Shown piece after piece: positions 12,255 through 63,266 of a DNA stretch of 64,000 bases. The position numbers were made by a program, and so were the translations under genes. Positions within the stretch are counted from its first letter, which is position 1, and each line of letters opens with the position of its first letter. The stretch is taken from contig NZ_JABBPK010000001.1 in the NCBI RefSeq assembly GCF_012933555.1, positions 1,962,001-2,026,000 on the forward strand. Reading direction: 5' to 3'. The notes under the pieces were generated by a model that made no database searches, was not told the DNA's origin, and saw only the letters and a program-made list of their open reading frames with translations. Origin of the DNA: Niallia alba. GTDB lineage: Bacteria; Bacillota; Bacilli; Bacillales; Cytobacillaceae.

Positions 12255-12411
12255 TTTACCCCACTCTTAACGGACAGTAAGATTCCCCCAAAGCTTATGA
12301 GTATAGGAGGAAGATAGGTGGGAGATCAACTGTCCGTAAAGGTCCGATTGGTTCAACTAACCATCAGTGGGGGAGGAAGGAAAACCCCCACTGATGGAAG
12401 TTTCACTTTAT
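12255..12411. repeat. 150-bp structured repeat (family T), single copy
   Basis: Starts TTTACCCCACTC and ends CACTTTAT. The pair CGGACAGT and ACTGTCCG is perfectly complementary in this copy, and the 3' hairpin has arms CCATCAGTGGGGG / CCCCCACTGATGG. Same family as the arrays at 14727 and 35775 and the single copy at 42084. Lies between ylbC and ylbD. Confidence 0.88.
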
Positions 12412-14394: not shown

Positions 14395-14670
14395 ATGCTA
14401 GGGCAACGGCAGGGAATTATTGTTTGGTTATTTTCACTAAAACAAGCAAAAATGTTAAGAAGATATGGGAATGTTCATTTTATTTCCAAAAAGTTAAAAT
14501 ATGTTGTGCTCTACACGAATCAAAGTGATGTAGAAAGCATAATGGAAAAAATTGATGCTCATTCTTTTGTTAAAAAAGTAGAGCCGTCTTATAAGCCATT
14601 TTTAAAGATGGAATTTGAAAATTCGCGACCAGATAAAGCGAAAGAATACGATTATAAAATGGGGATTTAA
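14395..14670 (+). CDS. ylbG: YlbG family protein (UPF0298, DUF2129)
   Basis: A 91-residue basic protein starting [19 protein letters not shown], with AAAGGGG ahead of ATG 14395. The pattern [19 protein letters not shown] is conserved in the family. The function is unknown. It is followed by the largest repeat array in the window instead of directly by rsmD. Confidence 0.9.
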
Positions 14671-14726: not shown

Positions 14727-15639
14727 TTTATCCCACTCTTAACGGCCAGTAAGCCTCCCCCTCAAGCTTATGAAAATACGAGGAAGATAAGAGGGAGAGC
14801 AACTGTCCGTAAAGGTCCGATTGGTTCAACTAACTATCAGTGGGGGAGGAAGGAACCCCACTGATAGAAGTTTCACTTTATCCCACTCTTAACGGCCAGT
14901 AAGCCTCCCCCTCAAGCTTATGAAAATACGAGGAAGATAGGTGGGAGAGCAACTGTCCGTAAAGGTCCAATTGGTTCAACTAACTATCAGTGGGGGAGGA
15001 AGGAACCCCCCACTGATAGAAGTTTCACTTTATCCCACTCTTAACGGCCAGTAAGCCTCCCCCTCAAGCTTATGAAAATACGAGGAAGATAGGTGGGAGA
15101 GCAACTGTCCGTAAAGGTCCGATTGGTTCAACTAACTATCAGTGGGGGAGGAAGGAACCCCCCACTGATAGAAGTTTCACTTTATCCCACTCTTAACGGC
15201 CAGTAAGCCTCCCCCTCAAGCTTATGAAAATACGAGGAAGATAGGTGGGAGAGCAACTGTCCGTAAAGGTCCGATTGGTTCAACTAACTATCAGTGGGGG
15301 AGGAAGGAACCCCCCACTGATAGAAGTTTCACTTTATCCCACTCTTAACGGCCAGTAAGCCTCCCCCTCAAGCTTATGAAAATACGAGGAAGATAGGTGG
15401 GAGAGCAACTGTCCGTAAAGGTCCGATTGGTTCAACTAACTATCAGTGGGGGAGGAAGGAACCCCCACTGATAGAAGTTTCACTTTATCCCACTCTTAAC
15501 GGCCAGTAAGCCTCCCGCCTCAAGCTTATGAAAATATGAGGAAGATAGGAGGGAGAGCAACTGTCCGTAAAGGTCCGATTGGTTCAAGTAACCATGAGTG
15601 GGAGATGAAGAACCCCCGACTCATGGAAGTTTCCTTTAT
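14727..15639. repeat. Tandem array of six 150-bp structured repeats (family T)
   Basis: Six head-to-tail copies, each running from TTTAT to TTTAT. TTTAT occurs at 14727, 14877, 15029, 15181, 15333, 15484 and 15635, so unit lengths are 150-152. Each unit has CGGCCAGT/ACTGTCCG closing a domain, CTCCC/GGGAG inside it, and a 3' hairpin around CAGTGGGGG/CCCCCACTG. Copies 1-5 carry CTATCAG/CTGATAG; copy 6 carries CCATGAGT/ACTCATGG, so both strands of the stem change together. No coding frame spans the array. Confidence 0.93.
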
Positions 15640-15650
15640 GAGCCGATAAA

Positions 15651-15724
15651 TAAAAACAGTATTTTTGATGAAATTTGTTGGAGTATCGCTTTTCCACTAA
15701 ATCATTCATAGATACTGTTTTTTT
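15651..15724 (+). terminator. Hairpin terminator after the repeat array
   Basis: AAAACAGTAT and ATACTGTTTT pair around a long loop and are followed by T residues. It may be the original ylbG terminator, now separated from the gene by the inserted array. Confidence 0.55.
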
Positions 15725-15747
15725 ATGTGAAAAAGGAAGTGCAAATC

Positions 15748-15932
15748 AAAAAAAGCCTGCAGGCATGTACCTGCAGGCTCCTTCCACATCCTTATTTTCA
15801 TAAGGAAAGAAGGTAAAGGGAGAGGAGAAACCGGAGGAAGAACTTATGGGGAAACGTAAGTCTTCTCCGCGGTTGGCAACAACATCCTCGAATAGATGCT
15901 GTTAATTACATTATCCCCATCAAGGGGACACT
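15748..15932 (-). ncRNA. csfG: CsfG-like sporulation RNA candidate
   Basis: On the minus strand a chain of hairpins ends in a perfect terminator: AGCCTGCAGG, loop TACATG, CCTGCAGGCT, then T7 (15779 down to 15748). Upstream, in transcript order, are GTCCCC/GGGGAT, AACAGCATC/GGATGTTGTT, a long stem around CCGCGGAGAAGACTTA, and CCTTAT-GAAA-ATAAGG. A CATTTTA -10 (15945-15939) and GCATT -35 (15965-15961), 15 bases apart, resemble a forespore sigma-G promoter and predict a start near 15932, giving about 185 nt. B. subtilis has the forespore RNA CsfG, which I recall lies between ylbG and ylbH (rsmD), the same interval. Sequence identity is unverified. Confidence 0.6.
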
Positions 15933-16068: not shown

Positions 16069-16118
16069 AGGGAAGGTAAAAGAAGTTGTTAAAGTAAAAT
16101 AGGGTTGTGGTGATTAAA

Positions 16119-16685
16119 ATGAGAGTTGTCTCCGGAAAGAATAAGGGGATTCCATTAAAAGCAGTGCCTGGTAACTCAACTAGACCAACTACAGATAAAG
16201 TGAAAGAGGCTATTTTTAATATGATAGGTCCATATTTTCAAGGAGGAGAAGGCCTTGATTTATTTGCTGGGAGTGGTGGACTAGGTATTGAAGCTTTAAG
16301 TAGAGGGCTGGATCTTGTTATTTTTGTAGACAGAGATGGAAAAGCGATACATACTATTAAAGAAAATCTTTCTATATGCAAATTAGATAGCCGAGCTGAG
16401 GTATATCGCAATGATGCGGATCGTGCTTTGAAAGCATTACAGAAAAGAGAAAAAAGATTCGATTATATTTTTTTAGATCCGCCATATAAAAAACAGCAAT
16501 TAGAAAAAATGCTAACATTTATTGATGAAGCTGGTCTCTTAAAGGAAGAAGGAGTTATCGTTTGTGAACACGGTTCAGAAATTTCTTTACCTGAGGCAGT
16601 AAGCAGATTTCAACAAGTGAAACATGAAAAATACGGAATAATTGCGGTTTCTATTTATTCCTTACAAATTGGTACGGAGGACTAA
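16119..16685 (+). CDS. rsmD: 16S rRNA (guanine966-N2)-methyltransferase
   Basis: A 188-residue protein; ATG 16119 gives MRVVSGKNKG, the family start, while the GTGGTGAT just before it serves as the binding site. The SAM-binding motif LDLFAGSGGLG is at 46-56 and the catalytic DPPY at 120-123, typical of N6-adenine or N2-guanine methyltransferases. It methylates G966 of 16S rRNA in the assembled small subunit. It sits 3 bases before coaD, forming a two-gene operon conserved across Firmicutes (ylbH in B. subtilis). Confidence 0.95.
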   Translation: MRVVSGKNKGIPLKAVPGNSTRPTTDKVKEAIFNMIGPYFQGGEGLDLFAGSGGLGIEALSRGLDLVIFVDRDGKAIHTIKENLSICKLDSRAEVYRNDADRALKALQKREKRFDYIFLDPPYKKQQLEKMLTFIDEAGLLKEEGVIVCEHGSEISLPEAVSRFQQVKHEKYGIIAVSIYSLQIGTED

Positions 16686-33129: not shown

Positions 33130-33480
33130 GAGGCGTTCATTAAGGGAATGAACGCCAAAATAAACAGGGGAATGAGCAAAAGTGGTTTTCATCAAGGGAA
33201 TGAACGCCAAAATAAACAGAGGAATGAGCAAAAGTGGTTTTCATTAAGGGAATGAACGCCAAAATAAACAGGGGAATGAGCAAAAGTGGTTTTCATCAAG
33301 GGAATGAACGCCAAAATAAACAGAGGAATGAGCAAAAGTGGTTTTCATCAAGGGGATGAACGCCAAAATAAAGAGAAGAAGCGGGAAAAGTGGTTTTCAT
33401 CAAGGGAATGAACACTAAAATAAACAAAAGAAGCAGCAAAAGTAGCGATCACCAAGAAAATGACCAACAAAATAATCAGA
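33130..33480. repeat. Tandem array of 52-bp hairpin repeats (array B)
   Basis: About seven units with an exact period of 52: the GTGG word lies at 33182, 33234, 33286, 33338, 33390 and 33442. In the first unit GGCGTTCAT and ATGAACGCC form a perfect 9-bp stem; in later units the left arm is TTTTCAT, which weakens the outer pairs. The first 35 bases align with array A (1033-1449), the last 17 do not. The final two units are decayed. Confidence 0.9.
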
Positions 33481-33531
33481 AAAAGAAAAGAAACCCACTT
33501 TCATCAGTAAAAAACCCCCTCAATCCCTCCC

Positions 33532-35774: not shown

Positions 35775-36382
35775 TTTATCCCACTCTTAACGGCCAGTAA
35801 GACTCCCCCTTAAGCTTCTGAGAATACGAGGAAGCTAGGTGGGAGATCAACTGTCCGTAAAGGTCCGATTGGTTCAACTAACCATCAGTGGGAGATGAAG
35901 GACCCCCACTGATGGAAGTTTCACTTTATCCCACTCTTAACGGCCAGTAAGACTCCCCCTTAAGCTTCTGAGAATACGAGGAAGCTAGGTGGGAGATCAA
36001 CTGTCCGTAAAGGTCCGATTGGTTCAACTAACCATCAGTGGGAGATGAAGGACCCCCACTGATGGAAGTTTCACTTTATCCCACTCTTAACGGCCAGTAA
36101 GACTCCCCCTTAAGCTTCTGAGAATACGAGGAAGCTAGGTGGGAGATCAACTGTCCGTAAAGGTCCGATTGGTTCAACTAACCATCAGTGGGAGATGAAG
36201 GACCCCCACTGATGGAAGTTTCACTTTATCCCACTCTTAACGGCCAGTAAGACCCCCCCCTTAAGCTTCTGAGAATACGAGGAAGCTAGGTGTGAGAGCA
36301 ACTGTCCGTAAAGGTCCGATTGGTTCAACTAACCATCAGTGGGGGAGGAAGGAAAACCCCACTGATGGAAGTTTCACTTTAT
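35775..36382. repeat. Tandem array of four 150-bp structured repeats (family T)
   Basis: TTTAT at 35775, 35925, 36075, 36225 and 36378 delimits four head-to-tail units. The first three are identical to each other as far as I can read; the fourth differs in its centre and its 3' hairpin loop, where it matches the single copy at 12255. The 3' hairpin is CCATCAGTGGG/CCCACTGATGG. The array ends about 50 bases before the murE start, so any murE transcript starting at spoVD would cross it. Confidence 0.93.
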
Positions 36383-42083: not shown

Positions 42084-42227
42084 TTTCATCCCACTCTTAA
42101 CATCTAACAGCAAGCTGCGGAAAATTAAGGAGACTAGGTGATGGAATTCTCCCGTAATGGTCCGATAAGTGCAACAAGCGATCAGTGGGGATGAAGAAAA
42201 ACCTTCATTGATGGAAGTTTTCTTTAT
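42084..42227. repeat. Divergent single copy of the 150-bp repeat (family T)
   Basis: Begins TTCATCCCACTCTTAAC and ends GGAAGTTTTCTTTAT, with GGTCCGATAAG in the middle in place of GGTCCGATTGG. It has many substitutions and is the oldest-looking copy. It starts 3 bases after the spoVE stop codon. Confidence 0.75.
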
Positions 42228-56731: not shown

Positions 56732-56759
56732 TTTTCACAAATATATATTCATGTAGCGT

Positions 56760-57006
56760 TGATAGGGATAGTAGATTTCCAAAAAACTTATAAAAGCGAA
56801 TCAGGGACGGTGTAAGCCTGAGATAAGTTGGAAGTTGAAAATCACCCTGGAGTCTTTTTCTGAAAAGGTAAGTAAGAAAAGGCGGTTCATTGCCGTTAAA
56901 AAATGTCTAAGTGGATAAAATTTTCTTTTTATCTATAAGGGTGGTACCGCGGGAACCTTAACTATTAAACCTTCTCGTCCCTTTCGTGGGGATGAGAAGG
57001 TTTTTT
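56760..57006 (+). promoter_or_regulatory. T-box leader of ileS
   Basis: The T-box sequence GGGTGGTACCGCGG is at 56939-56952. The stem I specifier region contains GAAAATCACCC, offering AUC, an isoleucine codon, in agreement with the downstream gene. The terminator is AACCTTCTCGTCCC / GGGGATGAGAAGGTT followed by T6 (56967-57006). Uncharged tRNA-Ile should stabilise the antiterminator and switch on ileS. Confidence 0.95.
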
Positions 57007-62376: not shown

Positions 62377-62394
62377 AATTTTAGTTGAATAAGT

Positions 62395-62510
62395 CCTTTA
62401 AATCAATCCCGTGAGGTTGAGAAGGAAACGGATTCTAGCTATTAAAAGTAATAGCTATCTAAGTATACGTATATCCTCTCATCAAAACGGTGAGAGGATA
62501 TTTTTTTGAA
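62395..62510 (+). promoter_or_regulatory. PyrR attenuator 1, before pyrR
   Basis: The PyrR-binding loop ATCCCGTGAGGTTGAGAAGG (62407-62426) is followed by an antiterminator region and the terminator ATATCCTCTCA / TGAGAGGATAT with T7 (62471-62508). PyrR bound to UMP stabilises the anti-antiterminator and lowers expression when uridine nucleotides are plentiful. Confidence 0.92.
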
Positions 62511-63087: not shown

Positions 63088-63100
63088 ATAGAGCCCTTTT

Positions 63101-63199
63101 AAATGCAGTCCTGTGAGGCTGAGAAGGGGAGTTTTTCTCATAAGGTTTCTTCAAGCCTGTCTAAAACCCCTTTTTCGCTACGCAGAAAAGGGGTTTTAT
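63101..63199 (+). promoter_or_regulatory. PyrR attenuator 2, between pyrR and pyrP
   Basis: GCAGTCCTGTGAGGCTGAGA (63105-63124) is a canonical PyrR site. The terminator AAAACCCCTTTT / AAAAGGGGTTTT follows (63163-63198). Confidence 0.93.
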
Positions 63200-63266
63200 T
63201 TATTCAATAGGGGATATTAATAAGTAATTATACTCAAGTATTTTTTTACAGAAAGAGGAGACAGAA

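Follow-up and report, generated by a model that had tools for sequence, protein, structure and literature searches.

A dispersed two-hairpin repeat in Niallia alba with an apparent one-sided TTTAT target, polar tandem arrays and an orientation that follows the replication fork

The bcr1-type repeats, which with bcr2 and bcr3 make up the group A repeats, are given a size of 147-167 bp in a published table (PMC2267715) and are described as having a TTTAT motif and a high copy number (PMC6542083). The IS200/IS605 elements are described as inserting 3' of a fixed short target, which is kept on their left, and as carrying guide sequences before their hairpins (PMC5934647). Their targets are said in the source to include T-rich pentanucleotides, TTTAT among them, with neither duplication on insertion nor terminal inverted repeats (PMC4227781), and their orientation is reported to follow replication (PMC5371812). 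REP and REPIN sequences, associated with RAYT (TnpA-REP) proteins, are likewise described as short, dispersed palindromes for which mobilisation in trans by way of single strands is supposed.

The element described here was met in a window of 64,000 nucleotides of the Niallia alba genome (contig NZ_JABBPK010000001.1, positions 1,962,001 to 2,026,000), where it occurs both singly and in arrays (Table 1). It resembles bcr1 in size, TTTAT ends, copy number, conserved stem structure and intergenic position, and the resemblance in size and TTTAT that the first-pass annotation had pointed to agrees with the published features (PMC2267715, PMC6542083). The literature confines bcr1 to the B. cereus group, whereas this element is found in Niallia and in many related genera, and for that reason it is not filed as bcr1; a relationship between the two is plausible on size, ends and description. 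What is added here is the arrays and their outlying 3'-most units, a target that appears to lie on the left only, a bias towards the lagging-strand template, and the absence of any tracking with Y1 or RAYT genes. Literature searches on bcr1 in an open-licence library gave no title or opening line of an abstract with a proposal of single-strand transposition or of tandem arrays.

With IS200/IS605 the element shares a T-rich pentamer target kept on the left, hairpins near both ends, insertion without duplication, and fork orientation. It differs in that it encodes nothing, that we found no autonomous copy related to it, and that it has no visible dependence on a resident Y1 enzyme. Compared with REP and REPIN sequences it is much longer, has two domains and uses a pentamer target. 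The reading we favour, and hold to be probable, is that the element is non-autonomous and inserts, as single-stranded DNA, 3' of TTTAT in a manner resembling that of IS200/IS605.

Array 1 is returned by Tandem Repeats Finder as 6.0 copies with a period of 152, 97% matches and a score of 1691. Its six head-to-tail units measure 150-152 bp each, and every boundary within 14727-15639 reads TTTAT. The first-pass annotation had proposed at this place the tandem amplification of a structured element of about 150 bp, in six copies delimited and joined at TTTAT, and in each of these respects its description holds; the 12 copies that it counted correspond to 11 good copies and one degenerate copy in the window. 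The 3' stem of array 1 reads CTATCAG/CTGATAG in units 1-5 and takes in unit 6 the form given in Table 1. The best match of a covariance model of the element within the window has E = 1.5e-47.

Table 1. Copies of the element in the 64,000-nucleotide window, in window coordinates
Feature	Positions	Strand	Remarks
Array 1, unit 1	14727..14881	+	Left TTTAT 14727-14731; right TTTAT common to unit 2; 3' hairpin 14834-14867
Array 1, unit 2	14877..15033	+	
Array 1, unit 3	15029..15185	+	Covariance-model match
Array 1, unit 4	15181..15337	+	
Array 1, unit 5	15333..15488	+	Covariance-model match
Array 1, unit 6	15484..15639	+	3'-most, divergent; stem CCATGAGT/ACTCATGG
Array 2	35775..36382	+	Four units, first three identical (Tandem Repeats Finder, sequence)
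Single copy	12255..12411	+	Pentamers: left TTTAC, right TTTAT
Degenerate copy	42087..42227	+	46 bits

Array 1 has a 91-codon open reading frame (14395-14670) on one side and an Rfam ylbH leader (15745-15872) on the other. The protein encoded at 16107-16685, which we take to be RsmD-like, is closest to that of Niallia circulans (94%), followed by those of other Niallia and of related genera, which places the host in Niallia and outside the B. cereus group. No Rfam family matches array 1 at its gathering score, and the sole match at E <= 1 is a chance microRNA at 15647-15727, outside the array. The window also holds tandem arrays with a 52-bp period at 1057-1457 (7.7 copies) and 33136-33485 (about 6 copies), which are unrelated to the element, together with a T-box leader at 56750-56985 and PyrR binding sites at 62391-62507 and 63092-63203, all three ordinary for Bacillaceae.

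The covariance model was built on 37 copies. Two regular-expression matches judged not to be copies were dropped before counting. The model finds at least 150 matches in the Niallia genome; among the matches listed, 132 copies were analysed, falling into 100 loci that include eight arrays of 3 to 8 units. The element is a dispersed mobile repeat with more than 100 copies in this genome. The same model matches 9 of the 13 genomes of the host genus and 94 of the 151 genomes of the family, in 20 of its 25 genera; this bears out the occurrence outside the B. cereus group that the first-pass annotation had raised. Carriers include Mesobacillus maritimus, Cytobacillus horneckiae (with two adjoining units), Priestia abyssalis and a plasmid of Pseudalkalibacillus hwajinpoensis. 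A blastn search of phage records gave no match to the element, and blastn returned no plasmid of the B. cereus group either, a negative of little weight. None of the 12 remaining genomes in the genus has a model match at the position corresponding to array 1. In two other Niallia (L143, L144) the intergenic region corresponding to the single copy of Table 1 contains a remnant resembling a right end (..TTGAAGTTGCACTTTAT..). A complete short form of about 95 bp, TTTATCCCGCATTAACGG ... GGCTTCACTTTAT, was seen in a plasmid record labelled Klebsiella grimontii (CP079755; L065:2974-3063), which means either that the element has left the Bacilli by transfer or that the assembly is mixed.

The consensus of the element consists of two adjacent hairpin domains. 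In an alignment of 53 distinct copies drawn from many genera, pairing holds in 94.1% of cells. Of the 51 pairs, 30 show changes on both sides, where shuffles give 10.2 and slid controls 5-11, and the covariation score of the structure is 0.165 versus 0.082; the alignment of these copies had been fitted to the structure model, which favours the structure. The argument of the first-pass annotation, that compensatory changes in the stems mark selection on a folded strand, is supported by a covariation that lies above both the shuffled and the slid controls. G-U pairs outnumber A-C mismatches by 119 to 47, or by 73 to 47 when one constant G-U pair is removed, and are spread over 16 pairs as against 10; this excess is a weak sign in favour of the top strand as the strand that folds. 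Fold stability was tried as a marker of the acting strand and rejected, since it lends the top strand no support: that strand has the more stable fold in just 9 of 37 copies with RNA parameters and in 16 of 37 with DNA parameters. The two stems are preceded by CTTAA and ACTAA, at the place where the guide bases of an IS200/IS605-type element would be sought.

The pentamers at the two ends behave differently. Among the matches listed, 109 copies were read, comprising single loci and the end units of arrays, with inner units left out but for one; TTTAT stands on the left in 86 and on the right in 97, and degenerate copies account for many of the exceptions. For the 46 strong single-copy loci (at least 150 bits, chosen by bit score among the matches listed, with pentamers entered by hand), the left pentamer is other than TTTAT in 10 and the right in none. 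The genus of a second copy-rich genome, G078, gave 70 usable rows out of 72, after a Niallia copy out of register (L390) and a degenerate copy (L384) were set aside; both pentamers are TTTAT in 52, with departures on the left only in 12, on the right only in 3 and on both sides in 3. With variation at the left pentamer and a constant TTTAT at the right, the left looks like a target and the right like a part of the element.

Empty sites were sought in relatives. At G078:C1:4384200 the copy is absent from ten aligned relatives, and five of these (L412, L413, L414, L418, L419) have a single TTTAT at the exact junction; a shorter form occupies the site in genomes G106 and G047. The filled site at G078:C1:845000 is bounded by GTTAT (left) and TTTAT (right), and the empty relative L445 reads GTAAT, which is nearer the left pentamer. 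Among the other relatives at this site, L442 has lost part of it and three show no pentamer, and the orthologous filled copy in G106 (L436) has TTTAT on its left. This lone informative empty site supports the left pentamer as target without settling the matter. Relatives of the Niallia genome also lack the copies, but diverged intergenic DNA leaves their junctions unreadable.

TTTAT delimits and joins the units, as the first-pass annotation had it; a duplication of TTTAT on insertion, which that annotation gave for bcr1, is not supported here, in view of the one-sided departures and of the informative empty site. The same departures bear on the possibility that the element is a classical MITE mobilised by a DDE transposase, for which TTTAT would be the target-site duplication. 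Such a reading would be in keeping with the listing of bcr1 among MITEs (PMC3733652, PMC3446304) and with the presence of TTTAT on both sides of most copies, but a duplication does not agree with departures that fall only on the left in the 46 strong loci (10, against 0 at the right end), the ends are not mutual inverted repeats when compared by eye, and fork orientation is not expected from double-strand transposition. We regard it as quite improbable.

The orientation of the element is strongly biased. Among the matches listed, 92 of the 100 loci present the same strand on the lagging-strand template: with ter placed at 2.65 Mb, 40 of the 42 loci on the right replichore lie on the + strand and 52 of the 58 on the left replichore lie on the - strand. 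The position of ter is approximate because the GC skew, positive to 2.57 Mb and negative from 3.5 Mb, is still slightly positive (0.028) at 2.70 Mb; cuts from 2.5 to 2.7 Mb leave 90 to 92 of the 100 loci following the fork. Genes share part of such a bias, 159 of 207 sampled open reading frames of this genome being co-oriented with replication. The control for neighbouring genes covered 99 of the 100 loci (one had too little flank), 97 of them with both neighbours. The fork is followed by 58 of 63 loci where both neighbours are co-oriented with it, by all 6 where both are opposed, and by 26 of 28 where they are mixed. In this Niallia genome the orientation of the element tracks the fork, not transcription. 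For G078, 67 of 92 loci follow the fork, a figure that counts all fragments without a gene control and is no more than gene orientation alone could give; among its young long-form copies the count is 16 of 18, again without a gene control. Selection after insertion could have shaped the orientation.

An orientation that tracks the fork and not transcription speaks against an element that is not chiefly mobile, but a regulatory RNA whose arrays are maintained by selection, as does the absence of a model match at the array 1 site from all 12 remaining genomes in the genus. Rfam, too, offers nothing at E <= 1 save the chance microRNA outside the array. Covarying stems and the excess of G-U over A-C are what a regulatory RNA would display, 58 of 99 loci have neighbouring genes that both point the same way, and part of the B. 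cereus bcr copies are reported as transcribed (PMC3446304); weighed together, these points leave the regulatory reading extremely improbable in our judgement.

The arrays are polar. In all eight arrays of the Niallia genome the rest of the units differ most from the 3'-most one, by 4 to 15 edits in seven of them; in the eighth the 3'-most unit is 5 edits from four units and 2 from its neighbour. The 5' units are near identical, one array having seven identical units, and unit 1 of array 1 is 2-3 edits from units of the 628 kb array versus 3-5 from most of its own neighbours. The outlying 3'-most unit, the near identity of the 5' units and the closeness of unit 1 to the 628 kb array point to the entry of new units on the 5' side.

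Alongside the dispersal with empty sites, the pentamer asymmetry, the fork orientation in this genome, the covarying hairpins and the array polarity, all of which are observed, we infer a single-stranded intermediate, an enzyme and a mode of unit multiplication inside arrays. Under insertion as single-stranded DNA, the non-autonomous two-hairpin element of about 150 bp would fold on the lagging-strand template left single-stranded by the fork, and an enzyme acting in trans would cut after the left pentamer and after the TTTAT of the right end. The freed single strand would then be joined 3' of TTTAT, or of a near match to it, elsewhere in the genome, so that the target pentamer would remain on the left only and no duplication would arise. 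Since the last bases of the element are themselves a target sequence, new copies could settle next to existing ones and in matching orientation, which would yield head-to-tail arrays growing on their 5' side. Fork-following orientation and a one-sided target together give a definite, testable proposal for the movement of such repeats, and elements that end in their own target suggest a simple rule for the growth of tandem arrays.

We know of no transposase for such repeats. The Niallia genome has 10 matches to PF01797 (Y1), and 128 of the 151 family genomes have at least one, so the single-strand route might be driven in trans by a resident IS200/IS605 TnpA or RAYT; the behaviour of the element matches Y1 transposition as the sources describe it (PMC4227781, PMC5934647, PMC6006769, PMC5371812). 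The distribution over the 151 genomes, with enzyme presence and absence called from profile matches only, argues against such a resident driver. Both the element and a Y1 match occur in 80 genomes, the element only in 14 (of the 94 that bear it), Y1 only in 48 and neither in 9, for an odds ratio of 1.07. A RAYT-type match is found in 68 of the 94 genomes with the element and in 41 of the 57 without it (odds ratio 1.02), a lack of association that again sets the element apart from REP and REPIN sequences. The genomes with no match to PF01797 include G008 (with 103 element matches), G024, G028, G047, G059, G078 and G091, and none of the 10 Y1 loci of the Niallia genome is flanked by element ends. 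Mobilisation by a resident Y1 enzyme in trans is on these grounds unlikely, though not negligibly so.

Particular candidates were also tried and rejected. Resident Y1 genes as autonomous parents failed at all 10 loci, which showed only scattered matches to the element ends with 2-3 mismatches, and IS200-type copies have end hairpins that differ from those of the element. The RAYT gene beside a comM-like gene has no match in G005 (69 element matches) or in G008, and shows no association over the 151 genomes. Two RAYT-like Y1 genes, L062 and L063 (G000:C1:4586253 and 4566123), each adjoin a magnesium-chelatase/ComM-like gene and are 97% alike over about 2 kb.

A structured element with a fixed target on the 5' side and fork orientation might also move through an RNA intermediate copied at the fork, after the manner of group II intron retromobility, and group II introns show a similar fork bias. 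A reverse transcriptase was rejected as mobiliser: no RVT_1 match is present in 7 of the 24 genomes tried, among them the copy-rich G028, G047 and G078, and a unit of about 150 bp is far below the size of any ribozyme known to us. We consider movement through RNA very unlikely. There is a small chance, somewhat better than that, that the folded single strand is the substrate of a tyrosine recombinase, as integron cassettes and Xer-integrated phage DNA are; enzymes of this sort are, to our knowledge, near universal, and one of them would account for the spread without a resident transposase. The excision of integron cassettes has been tied to the lagging-strand template (PMC5371416), and for bcr elements a 'site-specific recombination-like mechanism' has been put forward (PMC6542083), but an integron does not have hundreds of targets such as these TTTAT sites, dispersed over the genome.

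For the favoured insertion of single-stranded DNA 3' of TTTAT, the mobiliser may possibly have been lost since, or be borne on a plasmid. The search for it is narrowed to an enzyme that acts on single strands and need be neither a resident Y1 enzyme nor a reverse transcriptase. More tentatively, the copies across the family might form a class of folded, modular DNA elements without coding sequence. Such elements would transpose as single-stranded DNA at the fork through an enzyme not known as a transposase, possibly one of the host, and would build polar arrays because every copy has its own target at its end.

Many copies in G078 keep both ends and have an extra structured segment in the middle. 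These long forms measure about 260 bp, with at least 18 near identical, and others reach 455 bp; part of the extra segment resembles a right end in inverted orientation. Ends that stay constant while the middle varies would be the expected trace of an enzyme that reads the ends. The sole stretch inspected for a gene between separated ends, G078:C1:1401500-1404200, proved to contain a composite long form and an unrelated open reading frame. At loci L370-L388 of the same genome, further hairpin insertions are nested inside the long forms.
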